Positions 31,141 to 39,863 of a stretch of DNA of 39,863 nt are shown here, one piece after another. The number at the start of each line of letters is the position of its first letter. Positions within the stretch are counted from its first letter, which is position 1. The DNA comes from Oceanospirillaceae bacterium (GTDB lineage: Bacteria; Pseudomonadota; Gammaproteobacteria; Pseudomonadales; Balneatricaceae): assembly GCA_013373085.1 (NCBI GenBank), contig JABXIM010000140.1, forward strand, positions 1-39,863. The letters run 5' to 3'. Under the pieces are notes generated by a model. That model searched no databases. It was not told where the DNA came from and was given only the letters and a program-made list of their open reading frames with translations. Made by a program: the position numbers and the translations under genes.

Positions 31141-32220
31141 TCACTCTTTCCCGATCACACCACGCTGAATCTGATCGCGCTCGATCGACTCGAACAGCGC
31201 CTTGAAGTTGCCTTCCCCGAAGCCCTCGTCCCGCTTGCGCTGGATGAACTCGAAGAATACCGGTCCCAGCAACGTGTTGGAGAATATCTGCAACAGCAGC
31301 TTCGGCTCGCCGCCTTCGGTACTACCGTCGACCAGGATACCGCGTGCCTTGAGCTCCGCCACCGGTTCGCCGTGCCCCGGCAGCCGCTCGTCGAGCATTT
31401 CATAGTAGGTATCGGGTGGCGCCGTCATCAGCGGAACCCCCCGCTCCCGCAGCCGGTCGACGCAGCCAGGCAGATCGTCGCAGCGCAGCGCGATATGCTG
31501 CACTCCCTCGCCGTTGAACTGCATCAGAAACTCCTCGATCTGGCCGCTGCCGCCGGCGGACGCCTCTTCGTTGAGCGGGATACGGATCTTGCCGTCCGGC
31601 GCGGTCATCGCCTTAGAGGTGAGACCGGTGTACTCACCCTTGATATCGAAATAACGGATTTCCCGGAAGTTGAACAGGCGCTCGTAGAAGCTGGCCCAGT
31701 GGGCCATGCGGCCACGATAAACGTTATGCGTCAGATGATCGATTTCATAGAAACCGCAGCCCTCGGGGTGCCGGTCGACACCATCGAGAAACTCGAAGTC
31801 GATATCGTAGATTGACGAGCCTTCCTCGAATCGATCGATGAGGTAGATCGGCGCGCCGCCGATCCCCTTGATGGCCGGCAGCCTGAGTTCCATCGGCCCG
31901 GTCGGGATATCCAGTGGCTGAGCGCCCTGCTCGAGCACATGGGCATAGGCCTGATGGGCGTTATGCACCCGAAAGCCCAGGCCGCAGGCGGACGGCCCGT
32001 GCTCCTGGGCGAAGTAGTCGGCAAGGCTCTTGCGCTCGCGGTTGAGGATGAAGTTGATGCCGCCCTGGCGATAGAGATCGACCTGCTTGGAGCGGTGCCG
32101 GGCGACCCGCGAGAAGCCGAGCATGCGCAGCACCTCGGCAACCTTTTCGGACTCGGGCCCGGCGAACTCGACAAATTCGAAACCGCACAGGCCCGCCGGA
32201 TTTTCGAACAGATCAGCCAT
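31141..32220 (-). CDS. hppD: 4-hydroxyphenylpyruvate dioxygenase
   Basis: A 359-residue, two-domain vicinal-oxygen-chelate enzyme converting 4-hydroxyphenylpyruvate to homogentisate in tyrosine breakdown. The iron ligands are visible: H162 in EIDHLTH, H242 in VQHIALRC and E324 in FFEFIQR. The product-site helix [18 protein letters not shown] is intact. GAGGAGGG precedes the ATG. The rest of the homogentisate pathway is not in the window. Homogentisate breakdown yields fumarate and acetoacetate, so a link to the carbon genes on either side is possible but loose. It runs convergently into flgN with no visible terminator. Confidence 0.97.
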
Positions 32221-32373
32221 GGTTGCCCTCCTCTTTGCCGCATCGGGCGAAGCGTGCCGGACTGCAAGTGCAGTGCTCCGCGAGAGCCGGGATAGCCGCT
32301 CTCTGCGCTTGGCCCGATAAGTCTGTATCTGCTTTAAGGATAGCCCGGACGGGAGGGTCAGGAAGAACTTGAG

Positions 32374-33093
32374 CTAGATCCAGGCCATTAGCAGGGTTCC
32401 GGCCAGCACTGCGGTCAGTACGGCGTTAATCGCCATGCCGATGGAGCTGTAGACACCGGTAACGCTGTGCTGCTGAAAGGCCGCGGCCGTGCCGATGCCG
32501 TGGGCATTGACGCCGAGCGCCAGCCCCCGGGCGCGGCGGTCGCGGATCCGCAGCCGCTGCATCAAAGGCAACGCCAGCACCGCGCCGAATATACCGGTGA
32601 CGGCGCAGATCACCGCCGCCAGCTCCGGTATGCCGCCGATATCCTGGGCGATGCCCATCGCCACCGGCGCGGTCACCGACTTCGGCACCAGCGTTAGCAA
32701 CAGGCTGCGGTCGAGCCCGAACAGCCAGGCCAGGCCCAGCGCGCTCAGCACCGAGACCAGGGACCCGGCCAGCAGCGCCGGCAGCAGCGCGGGCAGGCTG
32801 CGCCTGAGGCTGCGGCGGTTCTGCCAGATCGGCAGCGCCAGGCAGACCACCGCCGGCCCGAGCATGACGTGGATGAACTGCGCCCCTGCGAAGTAATCCT
32901 CGTAGGGCACCCCGGTCAGCGACAGGAACAGCACCAGCAGGCAGACCGTTGTTGCCACCGGGTTGAACCACGCCGAACAGCGGGCACGGCGATACAGCGA
33001 TTGTGCCAGGACATAAGCCGCCAGGGTCACCAGCAGCCAGATCAGGGGATTTCGTTCAAGGTAGACCCAGAACGGCAGCTGTTCGATGTTCAT
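32374..33093 (-). CDS. lrgB: LrgB/CidB-family membrane protein, candidate glycolate transporter subunit
   Basis: A 239-residue membrane protein with about six or seven hydrophobic segments. The LrgB core shows FIHVMLGPAVVCLALPIW, LVPKSVTAPVAMGIA, IGGIPELAAVICAVTGIFGA and the conserved GLALGVNAHGIGTAAAF. LrgB partners LrgA; the pair is known from murein hydrolase control in Gram-positives, and the plastid glycolate/glycerate exchanger PLGG1 is an LrgA-LrgB fusion. Here the gene overlaps lrgA by 4 nt and lies downstream of iclR and the glycolate oxidase genes, so a small-carboxylate transporter role is favoured over a lysis role. The function is inferred from context. Confidence 0.9.
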   Translation of the reverse strand: MNIEQLPFWVYLERNPLIWLLVTLAAYVLAQSLYRRARCSAWFNPVATTVCLLVLFLSLTGVPYEDYFAGAQFIHVMLGPAVVCLALPIWQNRRSLRRSLPALLPALLAGSLVSVLSALGLAWLFGLDRSLLLTLVPKSVTAPVAMGIAQDIGGIPELAAVICAVTGIFGAVLALPLMQRLRIRDRRARGLALGVNAHGIGTAAAFQQHSVTGVYSSIGMAINAVLTAVLAGTLLMAWI

Positions 33094-33458
33094 GGTTCCA
33101 GCTCCTCGTCGCGCGCGGGCGCCAGGCGCCGCGCCAGCACCGCGAACACCCAGGCCGTTACCGCCATTCCGATGAGCAGGCTCAGCAACAGCACCACCAG
33201 CAGCTGCAGCAATATCGGGCTGACCAGATCAAGATGACGCACGATACCGACCGCCGCCGGCACGAACAGCAGTGACAGGTTGGCGAGGAAGAAGCGGGTT
33301 ACCTGGTCGAGTCCCGACCAGTCGCGAGGCAGGAGCGGAAGCAGCAGCAGAAACAGCAACATGCCGAGCACCGGTCCCGGTATCGGCATTGCGAGCAGTT
33401 CCACCATCAGGGTCCCCAGCACCTGGAGACCGATGATCAGTGTCAGCGCAACCAGCAT
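33090..33458 (-). CDS. lrgA: LrgA/CidA-family membrane protein, candidate glycolate transporter subunit
   Basis: A 122-residue protein with four hydrophobic segments. LrgA-family motifs include PIPGPVLGMLLFLLLL (about 25-40), DQVTRFFLANLSLLFVPAAV (about 51-70) and GIVRHLDLV, and the tail is charged (RRLAPARDEELEP). A strong GGAGG lies before the ATG, 27 nt after the iclR stop. The stop overlaps the lrgB start (ATGA). With lrgB and the adjacent glc genes it probably forms a membrane transporter for glycolate or a related acid. Confidence 0.92.
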   Translation of the reverse strand: MLVALTLIIGLQVLGTLMVELLAMPIPGPVLGMLLFLLLLPLLPRDWSGLDQVTRFFLANLSLLFVPAAVGIVRHLDLVSPILLQLLVVLLLSLLIGMAVTAWVFAVLARRLAPARDEELEP

Positions 33459-33485
33459 CTGGCGTACCTCCGTTTCAACAGCCTG

Positions 33486-34331
33486 TTATTGCCTCGCAGC
33501 GCCTCCAGACGGACGGTGGCCGCCAATGGCACGGGTGATGCCGTCGGCCGCCCTGATCACCGCGGCGCTATAGACCGGAATGCGGTCCGACTTGACCCGC
33601 ACCGAAGGCCCCGAGATCGAGACGGCGGCGATCGCTTCGGCGTTCTCGTCGTAGATGTTGGCCGCCACGCAGCGCAGGCCCGAGGTCTGTTCCTCGTTGT
33701 CGACCGAATAGCCCTGGTCACGAATGCGCCCGAGTTCCTCGAGGAAGGCGCTCGGCGAGGTAATGGTGTTGGGCGTCATCGCCTCGAGACCGGTGCGCTG
33801 GATGATCGCCATCACCGCGTCATCGTCGAGCGCCGACAGCAGCGCCTTGCCGACGCCGGCGGCATGCAGCGCGCCGCGGCTGCCGATCTGCACCACCATG
33901 CGCATCACCTCGGTGCACTCCACCTGACCGACGAATACGTGCTGCACGCCTTCCAGAACCGCAAGGTTCGAGGTTTCGCCGGTCTCGGCGACCAGCTGCT
34001 TCATGTAAGGCCGGGCCTGGGCAACGAAATCACGCTTCTTGAGATAGGCGCTGCCGACCGAGAAAGCGGTGACGCCGACCGACCAGAGTCCGCTCTGTTC
34101 GTCGTAATCAACGAAGTCCAGCTGGCGCATGCTGTTGAGCAGTCGGTGCGCGGTTGACGGCGCCAGCCCGACGCCGCCGGACAGCTCGGTCAGGTTGAGG
34201 CCGATATCGGAGGTCGCCAGACGCTGCAGCAGCGTCAGCGCCCGGGTCAGGGACTGCACCTGTCCGGCTCCGGAGGAAGCGGTTTTCTTGCTGGCGCTGC
34301 TGCTGCGCGCATCGCTGCGGCGGTCACTCAT
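33486..34331 (-). CDS. IclR-family transcriptional regulator
   Basis: A 281-residue regulator. A Ser/Lys-rich N-tail (1-22) precedes the winged HTH (about 24-85) with LNLTELSGGVGLAPSTAHRL. The IclR effector domain (about 100-270) has GVGKALLSAL, the motif RCVAANIYDENAEAIAAVSI and SGPSVRV. The ATG at 34331 has AGGGA upstream; the earlier in-frame ATG region is repeat sequence. IclR effectors are small acids such as glyoxylate or pyruvate. Between glcDEF and lrgAB it is the obvious candidate to control both. In E. coli this job is done by GlcC, a GntR-family protein, so this would be a different control. Confidence 0.9.
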   Translation of the reverse strand: MSDRRSDARSSSASKKTASSGAGQVQSLTRALTLLQRLATSDIGLNLTELSGGVGLAPSTAHRLLNSMRQLDFVDYDEQSGLWSVGVTAFSVGSAYLKKRDFVAQARPYMKQLVAETGETSNLAVLEGVQHVFVGQVECTEVMRMVVQIGSRGALHAAGVGKALLSALDDDAVMAIIQRTGLEAMTPNTITSPSAFLEELGRIRDQGYSVDNEEQTSGLRCVAANIYDENAEAIAAVSISGPSVRVKSDRIPVYSAAVIRAADGITRAIGGHRPSGGAARQ

Positions 34332-34435
34332 CGAGACTTTTCCCTGTGGCGGTCTGGGCGAAAACCGCCACAGCATAGCACCCCCACGCGTATCATCGAA
34401 GCGGGCGCTTGCGGTGCGGTTCGGGTTGCTCACCA

Positions 34436-34468
34436 GCACCCTACAGGTCCGGAAATACCGTAGGGTGC
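34436..34468. repeat. 9-bp inverted repeat, repeat edge or operator
   Basis: GCACCCTAC at 34436-34444 and GTAGGGTGC at 34460-34468, 15 nt apart. It could be an operator for the neighbouring IclR protein. However, GTAGGGTG is the usual edge of the structured repeat that begins here, so a repeat edge is more likely. Confidence 0.5.
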
Positions 34469-34545
34469 CGGTTATCGCCATGGATGGCGTGAATCCTGGC
34501 AATGCAGGAGCCATTGCCAGGGAAGCGCAGCGCACCGCAACGCTA
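34460..34545. repeat. Structured repeat with GCAGGAGC loop, copy B
   Basis: GTAGGGTGCCGG, a CGCCA/TGGCG hairpin (34476-34489), a perfect 9-bp hairpin CCTGGCAAT/ATTGCCAGG around loop GCAGGAGCC (34495-34521), then AAGCGCAGCGCACC, which can pair GCACC with the opening GGTGC. It has the same layout as copy A with different stems. Confidence 0.9.
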
Positions 34546-34553
34546 AAGCGCCT

Positions 34554-35762
34554 TCACCGGTCCAATAGCTCGATCCAGTGCTGCACCGGCACGTCGGCCT
34601 TGGTTTCAAGGTGCAGCTGGCAGCCGATATTGGCGGTAGCGATCCGGTCCGGATTGTCGACGGTCAGGGCTTTCAGCTTGTTGTTCAGCAGCCGCTGGCT
34701 CATCTCCGGCTGCAGGATCGAATAAGTACCGGCCGAGCCGCAGCACAGGTGCTTGTCGCGGGTTGCGGCCAGGTCGATGCCGGCCTTGCGCAGCACCCGC
34801 TCGACCACGCCGTTCTGCTTCATCGCATGCTGCAGCGTGCAGGGACAATGGAAGGCGACCTTGTCGCCCCCCTTGCCCGGCCCCAGCTTCGACAGGTCCT
34901 CGTCCAGCAGCACCGCGCCGAGATCCCGGGTCAGCTCGCTGACCCGGCGCGCCTTGTCGGCATACTGCGGATCGTGACGCAGCAGATGACCGTAATCCTG
35001 CACCATGGCGCCACAACCGGAGGCGGTCATGACGATCGCCTCGGCGCCGGCCTCGATCGCCGGCCACCAGGCATCGATATTGCGCCGCATGAAATCGAGG
35101 CCGTCCTCGTGCGCCGACAGGTGGTAACTGACAGCGCCACAACAGCCGGCCTTTGGCGCCTCGACCAGGGTGATGCCGAGACGGTCCAGCACCCGGGCCG
35201 CAGCAGCATTGGTATCGGGCGCGGCCGCCGGTTGGGCGCAGCCGGCCAGTGCGATCATCACCCTCGGGTGGCTGCTCGCCGGCCAGGGTTTCGCTTCGCG
35301 CCGCGGCGGCACCTTGGTCTTGAGCGGCGCCGGCAGCAGGGGGCGCAACAGCTGGCCGGCACGCAGCAGCGGAGCGAAGCGATGGCGATACGGCAGTACC
35401 TGGCGCAACCCCCAGCGCAGCAGGCGCTCCTTCGGCCTTCTCGGCAGCTGCTCTTCGACGAGACCGCGGCCGATATCCACCAGCCGCCCATACTGTACGC
35501 CGGACGGGCAGGTGGTTTCGCAGCTGCGACAGGTGAGGCAGCGGTCGAGGTGAGTGCGGGTCTTGTCGGTGACCCTGCCCTCCTCAAGCAGCTGCTTGAT
35601 AAGGTAGATGCGTCCGCGCGGGCCGTCACGCTCGTCGTTCAGTTCCTGGTAGGTGGGACAGGTCGCGGTACAAAAGCCGCAGTGCACGCAGGTGCGCAGG
35701 ATCTCTTCGGCCTCCTGCCCCTGCACGCTGTTTTTGTACTGCGGATGAATATTGGTTTTCAT
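34554..35762 (-). CDS. glcF: Glycolate oxidase iron-sulfur subunit GlcF
   Basis: A 402-residue protein. Two 4Fe-4S clusters are bound by C25-x2-C28-x2-C31-x3-C35 (CVHCGFCTATCP) and C75-x2-C78-x2-C81-x3-C85 (CLTCRSCETTCP). Two CCG-type domains follow, with KAGCCGAVSYHL and KHLCCGSAGTYS. It passes electrons from the FAD subunits GlcD/GlcE to the membrane quinone pool. It starts 3 nt after glcE within glcGDEF. The C-terminal QHWIELLDR ending is typical. Confidence 0.97.
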   Translation of the reverse strand: MKTNIHPQYKNSVQGQEAEEILRTCVHCGFCTATCPTYQELNDERDGPRGRIYLIKQLLEEGRVTDKTRTHLDRCLTCRSCETTCPSGVQYGRLVDIGRGLVEEQLPRRPKERLLRWGLRQVLPYRHRFAPLLRAGQLLRPLLPAPLKTKVPPRREAKPWPASSHPRVMIALAGCAQPAAAPDTNAAAARVLDRLGITLVEAPKAGCCGAVSYHLSAHEDGLDFMRRNIDAWWPAIEAGAEAIVMTASGCGAMVQDYGHLLRHDPQYADKARRVSELTRDLGAVLLDEDLSKLGPGKGGDKVAFHCPCTLQHAMKQNGVVERVLRKAGIDLAATRDKHLCCGSAGTYSILQPEMSQRLLNNKLKALTVDNPDRIATANIGCQLHLETKADVPVQHWIELLDR

Positions 35763-35765
35763 GGC

Positions 35766-36824
35766 TCACATCCAGCTATACAGGCGTCCGGGGTTGAACA
35801 GCCCATCCGGGTCGAAGGCTTTTTTCAGCCGCTGCTGAATCAGCTTCAGCGCCGGCGCCTGCGCAGGCATCACCTCGCCCAAGCGGTCACCGCCGCGGAA
35901 CAGAGTGGCCTGACCGCCAGCCGCCGCCGCCAGTTGCTCGATCCGTTCCCGGTCTGCATCGCCGCGGTACCAGCGCTGGGCGCCGCCCCAGTCGATCAGC
36001 CAGTCGCCGTCGAGCGGCAGGGGTTCCGCGCTTGAACGGATGGAGAAACGCCACAGCGGGGCTTCGGACTCGAAGAAGTCGAGACGCTGGTCGCGCAGCG
36101 CCTGCCAGAACGCCTGATCATCCGCCAGCAGCTCTCCGCCCCACTGGCGTACCGTGGCGTCGACGGCCGTGCGGGCCCCCGACAGGCGCAGGTAAAGACG
36201 ACCGTCGAGCCAGCACGCGGCCGACAGCGGTTTCGGTTCGCCTGCGCGCGCGTTCATCAGCTGCACCGCCTCGGCCATGCCGGCCTCTGTCACCAGGGTC
36301 AGGGTCTCGGCAGGCTTGGGCAGTACCTTCAGGCTGACCTCGGTGATCAGCCCCAGGGTCCCCATGGCGCCGGCCTGCAGCCGCGAGACATCGTAACCGG
36401 CGACGTTCTTCATAACCTGCCCCCCGAAGCGGAGCTCGTCGCCAAGACCGTTGATCAGCCGGATACCCAGCACCTGATCGCGCACCGAGCCCCACCAGGG
36501 CCGACCTGGCCCCGACTGGTTGCAGGCCAGGGTGCCGCCAAGCGTCGCGCGACCGCTATAGAGCGGCGGTTCGAACGACAGCATCTGCCCATGCTCGTCC
36601 AGTACTGCGGAGATCTCCTCGAGCGGCGTACCGGCGCGGGCCGTCAATACCAGTTCCACCGGCTCGTAGCTGACGATGCCGCGATGACGGCCGACCTCGA
36701 GTGGCCGCCCAATGGCCTCGCGGCCCATGAACCGCTTGCTTCCGCCGCCGCGAATATCGAGTTTGGTTCCGCTCTGACGCGCCTGCAGGATCTGCTCCTG
36801 CAGCTGTTTGCTGATATCGCTCAT
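35766..36824 (-). CDS. glcE: Glycolate oxidase FAD-binding subunit GlcE
   Basis: A 352-residue FAD-binding protein with PCMH-type motifs: IRGGGSKRFMG, YEPVELVLTARAGTPL, SGRATLGGTLACNQSGPGRP and GQVMKNVAGYDVSRLQAGAM. The C-terminal FDPDGLFNPGRLYSWM is typical. It is a shorter paralogue of GlcD and a required part of the GlcDEF complex. One base separates the glcD stop and its start (TGAGATG). Confidence 0.96.
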   Translation of the reverse strand: MSDISKQLQEQILQARQSGTKLDIRGGGSKRFMGREAIGRPLEVGRHRGIVSYEPVELVLTARAGTPLEEISAVLDEHGQMLSFEPPLYSGRATLGGTLACNQSGPGRPWWGSVRDQVLGIRLINGLGDELRFGGQVMKNVAGYDVSRLQAGAMGTLGLITEVSLKVLPKPAETLTLVTEAGMAEAVQLMNARAGEPKPLSAACWLDGRLYLRLSGARTAVDATVRQWGGELLADDQAFWQALRDQRLDFFESEAPLWRFSIRSSAEPLPLDGDWLIDWGGAQRWYRGDADRERIEQLAAAAGGQATLFRGGDRLGEVMPAQAPALKLIQQRLKKAFDPDGLFNPGRLYSWM

Positions 36825-36825
36825 C

Positions 36826-38280
36826 TCAGGCTCCCACGGCTTCGGGGGTGGATTCGATCGACCGGTACTCCTGGCAGCGGCGCAGCGTCGGCACCCCCTT
36901 GCCGGGATTCAGCGTTCCCTGTGGATCGAACGCGGCCTTGATCGCGTGGAACTGGCTCAGTTCCTGGTCGTTGAACTGCACCGGCATCTGACGAATCTTT
37001 TCGATCCCGACGCCGTGCTCGCCGGTGATGCAGCCGCCGACCTCGACGCAAAGCTCGAGTATCCTGGCGCCGAACTCTTCGGTTTTCTCGAACTCGCCCG
37101 GCACATTGGCATCGAACAGGATCAGCGGATGCAGGTTGCCGTCGCCGGCATGGAAGACATTGGCCACCCTGAGGCCATAGTGTTCCGACATCCGCTCCAT
37201 CTCGGTCAGAACATGCGCCAGCTGGCCGCGCGGGATAGTGCCGTCCATGCAGTAGTAGTCCGGCGAAATGCGCCCGACCGCCGGAAACGCCGATTTGCGG
37301 CCTTTCCACAGCAGCGCCCGCTCGGCCTCGTCATGGGAGGTGCGGACCGAGGTGGCGCCGAGCTGGCCGAACAGGGTCTCGACCGTTTCGATATGCTCCT
37401 GCACCTCCTCCGCCGTTCCATCGACCTCGCACAGCAGCAGCGCCCGCGCATCACGGGGATAGCCGGCCCTGGCGAAGTCCTCGGCCGCCTGGATGGCATG
37501 GGTGTCCATCATTTCCAGCCCGCCCGGAATGATGCCCGCGGCGATGATGCCGCCGACCGCATCGCCGGCCGTCTGCACATTATCGAACCCGGCCATCACC
37601 ACCCGCGCCCGCTCCGGCGTCGGCAACAGCTTCACCCGCACTTCGGTGACGATGCCGAGCAGTCCCTCGGAACCGGTCATGAGGGCCAGCAGGTCCATGC
37701 CGACACTGTCGAGCCCCTCGCCGCCGATCTGTACCCGCTCGCCCTCGACCGTGAGCATTTCGACGCTGAGAATATTGTGCACCGTCAGGCCGTACTTGAG
37801 ACAGTGCACGCCACCGGAGTTCTCGGCCACGTTTCCGCCAATGGTGCAGGCGATCTGGGACGAGGGATCGGGACCGTAATAGAGGCCGAACTCGGCCGCT
37901 GCCTCGCTGATCGCCAGGTTCCGTACGCCGGGCTGTACCCGGGCGCTGCGCGCCAGCGGGTCGATCTCGAGAATACGGTTGAACTTCGCCAGCGACAGCA
38001 CCACCCCTTCGGCATGGGGCATGGCGCCGGCGCACAGGCCGGTGCCGGCGCCGCGCGCCACCACCGGCACCTGCTCGCGGTGGCAGATGCGCAACACCTC
38101 CTGCACCTGCTCGACGGTTTCCGGCAGCACCACCAGCATCGGCCTTTCGCAGTACATCGACAGGCCGTCGCACTCGTAGGGGCGCAGCGTTTCGTCGTCG
38201 CTGATCACGTACTCCGGATCGATGAAGCGCCGAAAGCGTTCCGCCAGCTGTGCCTTTCTTGCGTTGTTCAGATTGCTCAT
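36826..38280 (-). CDS. glcD: Glycolate oxidase FAD-linked subunit GlcD
   Basis: A 484-residue catalytic FAD subunit that oxidises glycolate to glyoxylate. FAD-binding motifs are VVARGAGTGLCAGAMP, DPSSQIACTIGGNVAENSGG and GSEGLLGIVTEV. The C-terminal domain has NVFHAGDGNLHPLILFD, GGCITGEHGVGIEK and DPQGTLNPGKG. GGAGAG precedes the ATG, 40 nt after glcG. It acts at the inner face of the cytoplasmic membrane with GlcE and GlcF. Confidence 0.97.
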   Translation of the reverse strand: MSNLNNARKAQLAERFRRFIDPEYVISDDETLRPYECDGLSMYCERPMLVVLPETVEQVQEVLRICHREQVPVVARGAGTGLCAGAMPHAEGVVLSLAKFNRILEIDPLARSARVQPGVRNLAISEAAAEFGLYYGPDPSSQIACTIGGNVAENSGGVHCLKYGLTVHNILSVEMLTVEGERVQIGGEGLDSVGMDLLALMTGSEGLLGIVTEVRVKLLPTPERARVVMAGFDNVQTAGDAVGGIIAAGIIPGGLEMMDTHAIQAAEDFARAGYPRDARALLLCEVDGTAEEVQEHIETVETLFGQLGATSVRTSHDEAERALLWKGRKSAFPAVGRISPDYYCMDGTIPRGQLAHVLTEMERMSEHYGLRVANVFHAGDGNLHPLILFDANVPGEFEKTEEFGARILELCVEVGGCITGEHGVGIEKIRQMPVQFNDQELSQFHAIKAAFDPQGTLNPGKGVPTLRRCQEYRSIESTPEAVGA

Positions 38281-38320
38281 CGGGGCTCTCCGAATCAGAT
38301 TTATTTAGCGAAGCGTTGGC

Positions 38321-38746
38321 CTACCCCTGATGACGGCGCCAGTAATCGATGCCGGCCTGGGCACAGGCCATGTCCTGTTGCGGCGTACCGGAACTGATGC
38401 CGATACCGCCGACCACGGCGCCGTCGACTTCGACCGGCAGACCGCCGCCGACCACGCTGAGGCGTCCGCCAAGCGCCGTATGGATGCCGAACACCAGATT
38501 GCCCGGCGTACAGGCCTGGTTGTATTCATGGGTCGCCTTGCGCGCAGCGGCCGCGGTAAAGGCCTTGTCCTGGGCGACGGTGATACTGGTCACCTTACCA
38601 CCGTCCATACGCTCGAAGGCAATCAGATTGCCGGACTCGTCGGTGACGGCGATGCACATCGGCACCCCGATCTCGCGGGCATGGGCCGCCGCGCCTTCGA
38701 TCATCAAAGCGGCATCGGCCAGATCAAGCCTTTTAATTGACAACAT
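38321..38746 (-). CDS. glcG: GlcG/HbpS-family (DUF336) protein
   Basis: A 141-residue protein with the DUF336 pattern: CIAVTDESGNLIAFERMDGG, SITVAQDKAFTAAAARKAT, GRLSVVGGGLPVEVDGAVVG and GIGISSGTPQQDMACAQAG. The family includes E. coli GlcG, encoded in the glycolate operon, whose precise role is unclear, and heme-binding HbpS of Streptomyces. AGGAA precedes the ATG. It is the first gene of glcG-glcD-glcE-glcF. Confidence 0.93.
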   Translation of the reverse strand: MLSIKRLDLADAALMIEGAAAHAREIGVPMCIAVTDESGNLIAFERMDGGKVTSITVAQDKAFTAAAARKATHEYNQACTPGNLVFGIHTALGGRLSVVGGGLPVEVDGAVVGGIGISSGTPQQDMACAQAGIDYWRRHQG

Positions 38747-39062: not shown

Positions 39063-39863
39063 TCATCCCGTTGCACTCAGCTTCGCTTCGCGGCGCCAGT
39101 GGTGCAGCAGCGGTTCGGTATAGCCGTTGGGCTGTTCGCAGCCCTTGAAGATCAGGTCGCAGGCCGCCTTGAAGGCAACGCTGCGGTCATAATCCGGATC
39201 CATCTTGCGATAATTCGGATCACCGGCATTTTGGTTGTCCACCACCGCCGCCATCCGATGCAGCGTGTCCATCACCTGATCGTCGGTGCAGATACCGTGC
39301 AGCAGCCAGTTGGCCAGGTGCTGGCTGGAGATGCGCAGCGTCGCGCGGTCTTCCATCAGGCCGGTATTGTGGATATCGGGCACCTTGGAGCAGCCGATAC
39401 CCTGGTCGACCCAGCGCACCACATAGCCGAGAATGCCCTGGACATTGTTGTCGAGCTCGGCCTGGATCTGCTCCGGTGCGAGTCGCAGATCCCCCAGCAG
39501 CGGTGGCGTCAGCAACAGGTCGAGACTGGCACGGGGCCGCTGCGCCAGCTCGGTCTGGCGCGCCGCCACATCGACCTGGTGGTAGTGGATCGCATGCAGC
39601 GTCGCCGCCGTCGGCGACGGCACCCAGGCGCAATTCGCAGCGGCCTGGGGGTGGGCGATTTTGGCCTCCATCATCCGCGCCATCTCGTCCGGCATAGGCC
39701 ACATGCCCTTGCCGATCTGCGCCACGCCCTGCAGGCCGCACTCGAGACCGATATCGACATTGCGGTCCTCATAGGCCCGGATCCAGGGCTGTGCCTTGAT
39801 TGCCTCCTTCGGCAGCACCGGACCCGCCTCCATGCAGGTATGGATCTCGTCGCCGGTCCGGTC
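39063..39863 (-). CDS. glcB: Malate synthase G, C-terminal part
   Basis: The 266 C-terminal residues of a ~725-residue enzyme; the 5' end lies beyond the right edge. It condenses glyoxylate with acetyl-CoA to malate. Visible signatures are [15 protein letters not shown] at the edge, [20 protein letters not shown], and [19 protein letters not shown], which holds the positions of the E. coli active-site Cys617 and catalytic Asp631 (the D of MED), then [13 protein letters not shown] and [14 protein letters not shown]. It supplies the product-consuming step for the downstream glc genes and uses the acetyl-CoA made by Acs. Confidence 0.97.

Follow-up and report, generated by a model that had tools for sequence, protein, structure and literature searches.

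An lrgAB pair behind the glycolate oxidase genes of an Oceanospirillaceae bacterium: a candidate small-acid carrier beside a TRAP importer

We analyzed a 39,863-nucleotide stretch of DNA from an Oceanospirillaceae bacterium (GenBank assembly GCA_013373085.1, contig JABXIM010000140.1), in which lrgA and lrgB, the genes of a two-subunit membrane protein, lie behind genes for glycolate oxidation. This stretch, henceforth the window, comprises a complete contig (G000:C93; G+C 62.1%) from an assembly of 5,784,410 bases in 249 contigs, and it ends within glcB. The genes are ordered glcB-glcG-glcD-glcE-glcF-iclR-lrgA-lrgB on the minus strand, with hppD following 153 nt after lrgB. An earlier note, made from the sequence alone, had placed the glc genes, iclR, lrgA and lrgB on one strand, with 27 nt between iclR and lrgA and a 4-nt overlap of lrgA and lrgB. 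Domain searches of the window proteins returned a Pfam or NCBIfam match for every gene that it named and the measured gaps agree with its spacings, confirming that lrgAB lies behind the glc genes.

All of the following features are on the minus strand. The contig end cuts glcB, leaving the C-terminal part of malate synthase G (39063..39863; NF002825, 495 bits, model positions 460-723 of 726), which is followed by glcG, encoding an HbpS-like protein (38321..38746; PF03928, 1.2e-38). The FAD subunit of glycolate oxidase, GlcD (36826..38280), scored below two NCBIfam cut-offs (NF008408, 774 bits against 897; TIGR00387, 532 bits against 568), yet both Pfam domains are present and the neighbors are those expected. 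The glycolate oxidase subunit GlcE (35766..36824; NF008439, 503 bits, cut-off 284) and the iron-sulfur subunit GlcF (34554..35762; NF008434, 665 bits, cut-off 333) are well above theirs. With glcD, glcE and glcF adjacent, the window has the gene content of a glycolate oxidase glc operon. Behind it lie a gene for a regulator of the IclR/AllR/BhcR type (33486..34331; IclR_C, 7.6e-52), lrgA for the small membrane subunit (33090..33458; PF03788, 76.9 bits, cut-off 28) and lrgB for the carrier subunit (32374..33093; PF04172, 253 bits, cut-off 25). A PF03788 protein adjoining a PF04172 protein is the domain pair of the LrgAB/CidAB two-subunit carrier family, and a whole-genome profile search detected one LrgA and one LrgB match in the source genome. 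The lrgB reading frame is open and full-length, and the family blocks PKSVTAPVA and HGIGTA are present in it (alignment of 20 LrgB proteins with 22 invariant columns). The structure prediction for LrgB was poor (mean predicted local distance difference test score, pLDDT, of 55.9), and a search of solved structures with its sequence found no homologue at E values up to 1. LrgB has been put in the CPA/AT transporter group, and the family name quoted there already includes a glycolate/glycerate transporter (PMC8396727; this and the other papers are cited here from excerpts).

The earlier note saw no permease with the glc genes and argued from this that LrgAB is the transporter. No permease is indeed visible in the window, and the LldP/GlcA type is absent from the genome: a search for Lactate_perm (PF02652) gave no match there, so the permease of an E. 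coli-type glc operon is lacking, and the same holds for all seven genomes of the genus. E. coli ActP has matches in the source genome at only 22-32% identity. However, another contig of the same genome, C174 (L231), ends in 73 bases identical to the window end at 39863 and carries glcC, the tripartite ATP-independent periplasmic (TRAP) transporter genes dctP, dctQ and dctM, and the 5' part of glcB. The apparent permease gap is therefore an artefact of the contig end. The joined cluster consists of glcC, divergent from dctPQM-glcB-glcG-glcDEF, and then iclR-lrgAB. With a TRAP importer at the head of this very cluster, the argument from an absent permease does not hold.

The DctM encoded on C174 and its M. 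nitratireducens counterpart share 96% identity. At four of the six sibling loci dctP-dctQ-dctM immediately precedes glcB, and a glcC-type gene is transcribed divergently from it. At the sibling locus of G394 (L195), glcC and glcB are present and the stretch examined gave no TRAP match; at that of G390 (L191), another TRAP set (DctP by Pfam) stands before glcB. That set and an open reading frame, also before glcB, whose start resembles pyruvate kinase by eye span 11965-16309 of L191. We compared the M. nitratireducens DctP to solved structures and obtained 2zzv as the best match (3e-123), followed by two chains that are constructs named lactate-binding protein TTHA0766; we take this to be the 2zzv protein. 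In this nearest named relative, then, the binding protein resembles a lactate binder. We infer that the dctPQM system carries glycolate. The source genome contains 28 matches to a DctM of the C174 type, most of them weak, which indicates further TRAP systems.

The glc-lrgAB arrangement is kept in all seven genomes of the genus, which is Marinobacterium-like and represented here by a set that includes M. nitratireducens, M. rhizophilum, M. profundum and M. sedimentorum. Each genome has one GlcE and one LrgB, and LrgB is always encoded on the same strand as GlcE and 2.7-3.0 kb after it. LrgB identity to the window protein ranges from 73 to 90% across the genus. Linkage within the genus exceeds chance.

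The start of iclR is conserved in the genus as well (MSDRRSD, MSERRSD or MNDS...) and corresponds to the ATG at 34331 in the window, where the open frame itself reaches 34535. A tight coupling of iclR to glcF is not borne out, as this conserved start leaves a gap of 222 nt (34332..34553); the gap measures 184-485 nt in the other six genomes. On account of this gap, a possible transcription-unit boundary, the simplest reading suggests that iclR-lrgAB is a transcription unit of its own behind the glc genes. The earlier proposal that IclR controls oxidation as well as transport is not supported. The gap contains three inverted repeats in the window, and the arms reach 34 nt in one relative (L192, 15071-15151); they may represent a repeat element or an mRNA hairpin. 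A consensus scan of 32200-34700 found no promoter-like and two terminator-like sites, with no excess over shuffled sequences. We considered a shared lrgB-hppD unit and rejected it, as hppD follows lrgB in four of the seven genomes in the stretches examined. Beside the cluster, between 27615 and 31134 of the window, there are open reading frames that resemble cheR, cheV, flgA, flgM and flgN by eye.

Outside the genus, we searched 390 genomes of the source's order, where LrgB was found in 243 and GlcE in 110, and 398 genomes of the phylum, where GlcE was found in 152 and LrgB in 131. Linkage counts beyond the fetched stretches are lower bounds, and same-contig pairs were matched by eye. Two arrangements were seen in the order. 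Two genomes of one genus (G156 and G074) have glcC-lrgA-lrgB divergent from glcDEFG, with a GlcC in G156 that exceeds the NCBIfam cut-off (439 against 301 bits). A third genome (G019) has glcC-lrgA-lrgB divergent from dctPQM-glcB-glcG-glcDEF, with lrgB 9.2 kb from glcE and a GlcC below the cut-off (263 against 301 bits). Among the phylum matches listed, two genomes of one genus (G628 and G694) and a further genome (G413) have glcE-glcF-lrgA-lrgB on a single strand, lrgAB coming directly after glcF, and two genomes of another genus (G421 and G530) have lrgAB 8.6-9.0 kb away.

In total, at least five genomes from three genera outside the source's own have LrgB within ~3 kb of GlcE (at 1.7-3.0 kb), where ~0.26 genomes would be expected. 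The chance of three genera at that expectation is 0.0024 (Poisson), a rough estimate that assumes mean genome sizes of 4.0 and 4.8 Mb and LrgB copy numbers of 1.3 and 1.25. Pairs separated by 10-50 kb on one contig numbered three among the matches listed (G382, G318 and G467) and pairs within 10 kb outside the genus at least eight, so there is an excess at short range. Linkage outside the genus is thus rare but above the rough chance estimate.

We built a tree of 61 LrgB proteins. The genus has a long stem (0.97) and lies apart from the group formed by other LrgBs of its own family; it is grouped, with starred support, with six plasmid-borne LrgBs, those of G421 and G530 and that of a single genome of the order. 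To account for the well-supported branches, the label "next to glc" has to change at least five times; it was assigned after the loci had been inspected and includes G019 at 9.2 kb, and the five changes may include losses. The tree supports a repeated association of lrgAB with glc genes and falls short of proving repeated recruitment. We also considered whether LrgAB displaces LldP/GlcA as a rule and rejected this, as Lactate_perm occurs in 4 of the 13 glc-linked genomes and in 8 of the 22 other genomes searched.

Some loci were examined for other neighbors. On plasmid pC of Komagataeibacter xylinus (L179, 6851-8726), a gene for a type II haloacid dehalogenase directly precedes lrgAB, and a LysR-type gene lies divergent ahead of it. 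Type II haloacid dehalogenases can release glycolate or lactate. This neighborhood hints, as a second pointer, that LrgAB may handle hydroxy-acids. A search in Burkholderiales with the LrgB of G628 recovered plasmid relatives up to 70% identical, and the sole one examined (L175) is without glc genes.

The regulator offers a further line of evidence. Among NCBIfam models, the IclR protein of the window scored best with BhcR (303 bits, below the cut-off of 350), then with IclR and AllR; no cut-off was reached. The ligand residues of E. coli IclR, which binds pyruvate as well as glyoxylate, have been tabulated (PMC11323563), and we aligned eight proteins beside E. coli IclR at these positions, leaving out L192. 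The five oxygen-binding residues are G, V, D, S and S in the window protein, G, A, D, S and S in IclR and G, I, D, S and S in BhcR; four of the five E. coli residues (G160, D212, S239 and S241) are thus identical in the window protein. The methyl pocket reads V, M, G, L in the window protein, L, M, L, L in IclR and T, A, S, M in BhcR, so that two of the four IclR residues (M146 and L220) are identical. From these comparisons the ligand is likely to be an oxo-acid. The best scores being with regulators that bind glyoxylate or pyruvate, the proposal that this IclR senses a glyoxylate-like acid gains support. We searched for the consensus of the E. coli-type IclR operator and found no site near iclR in the window, with one three-mismatch site elsewhere. 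In two genomes of another family, an IclR-family gene lies directly after glcF (L113, 11687-12508; L126, 3435-4241), with no lrgAB in the stretch; the L113 protein is BhcR-like, and both genomes have, nearby, a gene for a sensor kinase that contains PAS and Diacid_rec domains.

Taken together, we consider it rather probable that LrgAB is a facilitative carrier for a C2 or C3 hydroxy- or oxo-acid of the glycolate pathway, one that works alongside the TRAP importer as part of an iclR-lrgAB module. Gene content, conservation, TRAP genes and recurrent linkage are observed directly; beyond them we infer the substrates of both transporters, the direction of transport and the regulation. Glycolate would enter mainly via dctPQM, the TRAP system that opens the cluster, GlcDEF would oxidize it to glyoxylate, and GlcB would condense this to malate. 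LrgA and LrgB would together form a two-subunit carrier through which glycolate, glyoxylate or pyruvate could cross the inner membrane down its gradient. IclR would read glyoxylate or pyruvate and switch LrgAB, with iclR-lrgAB as a separate unit at the tail of the cluster. The role of LrgAB could be low-affinity, high-capacity entry, or relief of an acid build-up.

Several observations weigh against a carrier for acids of this pathway. LrgB and GlcE do not co-occur in the order sample: LrgB is present in 69 of 110 genomes with GlcE and in 174 of 280 genomes without it (Fisher p = 1). We retrieved stretches of up to 20 kb around GlcE for the best 100 of the 110 places outside the source's own genome, leaving out the ten weakest (14 of the 100 were under 15 kb and the shortest was 3.6 kb); three contain lrgB and 97 do not. 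An LldP/GlcA-type permease is present elsewhere in the genome in four of six linked genomes outside the genus. On plasmids, we checked the DNA of ten lrgAB loci (from 131 plasmid records with LrgB) and found glcD, glcE and glcF in none, and that of three glcDEF loci (from 78 plasmid records with GlcE) and found lrgA or lrgB in none; these counts weigh against a tight general rule that ties lrgAB to glc. Lastly, the methyl pocket of the regulator appears intermediate between those of IclR and BhcR, and it would fit glyoxylate and pyruvate alike. The neighborhood enrichment expected under the earlier proposal exists in part: linkage at short range, seen in at least three other genera, is above the rough chance estimate, but the presence of LrgB is independent of that of GlcE and most GlcE stretches lack lrgB. 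The proposal itself, in which LrgAB moves glycolate or glyoxylate/glycerate, is likewise partly supported. It is backed by the linkage in seven of seven genomes of the genus, by the recurrence elsewhere (in two lineages directly behind a GlcC-type regulator) and by relatives that carry small acids; the TRAP importer and the missing co-occurrence count against it.

A more specific version combines the two transporters as an importer and a valve. The TRAP system would import glycolate, and a glyoxylate-reading IclR would switch on LrgAB, releasing excess glyoxylate or glycolate; a role in C2-acid transport would then be common to LrgAB and PLGG1 of plant plastids, and LrgAB would have been recruited to glycolate metabolism several times. 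We put this forward tentatively, as a less likely possibility. We regard as rather unlikely that LrgAB is a general pyruvate carrier like PftAB, whose site behind glcF reflects shared control by a pyruvate-reading IclR and not glycolate transport. The kept residues M146 and L220 of the methyl pocket would suit this explanation, as would the binding of pyruvate by E. coli IclR (PMC11323563), and those bacterial relatives with data carry pyruvate (PMC5626966, PMC8805020, PMC6790026 and PMC12632267). An extra reason would, however, be needed for the way lrgAB recurs next to GlcC-type regulators and, in other lineages, next to glcDEF. Also, to our knowledge, pyruvate is the product of neither GlcDEF nor GlcB.

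That LrgAB is the main glycolate importer of the organism, as the earlier note proposed, seems improbable to us. The absence of Lactate_perm throughout the genus, the low identity of the ActP matches and the G394 locus, with no TRAP gene beside glcB in the stretch examined, would favor it. Against it stands the TRAP importer that heads the cluster here and at four of the six sibling loci; the single binding protein compared is of the lactate type. The known relative PftAB also speaks against it, being a facilitator with an apparent Km of ~1 mM for pyruvate (PMC5626966). We give hardly any credence to a holin/antiholin-like lysis modulator placed here by chance: NCBIfam models are automatically named for a CidB/LrgB autolysis modulator, and S. 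aureus LrgA, which takes part in pyruvate import, can also form pores and cause lysis (PMC8805020), but the window protein stays below the cut-offs of the autolysis-modulator models (TIGR00659, 197 against 249.7 bits), none of nine neighboring proteins searched is lytic, and lrgB is conserved with the glc genes across the genus at the identities given above and recurs beside them elsewhere.

Bacterial LrgAB proteins are still often annotated as lysis modulators, and their substrates beyond pyruvate are poorly known. A repeated linkage to glycolate oxidase would provide this large family with a concrete substrate and the photorespiratory carrier of plants with a bacterial counterpart. As glycolate is an abundant algal product (PMC11323563), glycolate carriers bear on marine carbon flow. 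Our literature search, with subscription journals mostly outside it, found no report of a linkage between bacterial lrgAB and glycolate oxidase in the excerpts covered, and no paper on a bacterial homolog of PLGG1.

We compared the cluster to known systems. The E. coli glc operon (glcC, glcDEFGBA) has the same oxidase subunits, GlcG and malate synthase G, and differs in its permease: it encodes GlcA, of the LldP type, whereas the cluster described here has a TRAP system at its head and iclR-lrgAB at its tail. In the lct cluster of Fusobacterium nucleatum, lrgAB is clustered with a D-lactate dehydrogenase and its authors speculate on transport of pyruvate or lactate; that cluster comprises lactate dehydrogenase, ETF and Bcd, with no glcE or glcF named in the excerpt (PMC12630350). 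PftAB (YsbAB) of Bacillus subtilis resembles the window pair as an LrgA/LrgB hetero-oligomer that carries a small monocarboxylate and works in both directions with the gradient, but it is specific to pyruvate and controlled by LytST (PMC5626966), whereas the regulator adjacent to the window pair is of the IclR type. LrgAB of S. aureus has a part in pyruvate import, and its LrgA can also act in lysis, as noted above (PMC8805020). YohJK of Escherichia coli, a putative exporter that lowers internal 3-hydroxypropionate (PMC7642389), is also an LrgA/LrgB pair, with an LrgB 32% identical to the window protein, but lies ~0.9 Mb from the E. coli glc operon. PLGG1, the glycolate/glycerate carrier of plant plastids (PMC5626966, PMC4368765, PMC6993116 and PMC8805020), compared here by description, shares the LrgA-LrgB domain pair and differs in being eukaryotic and a single fused protein.

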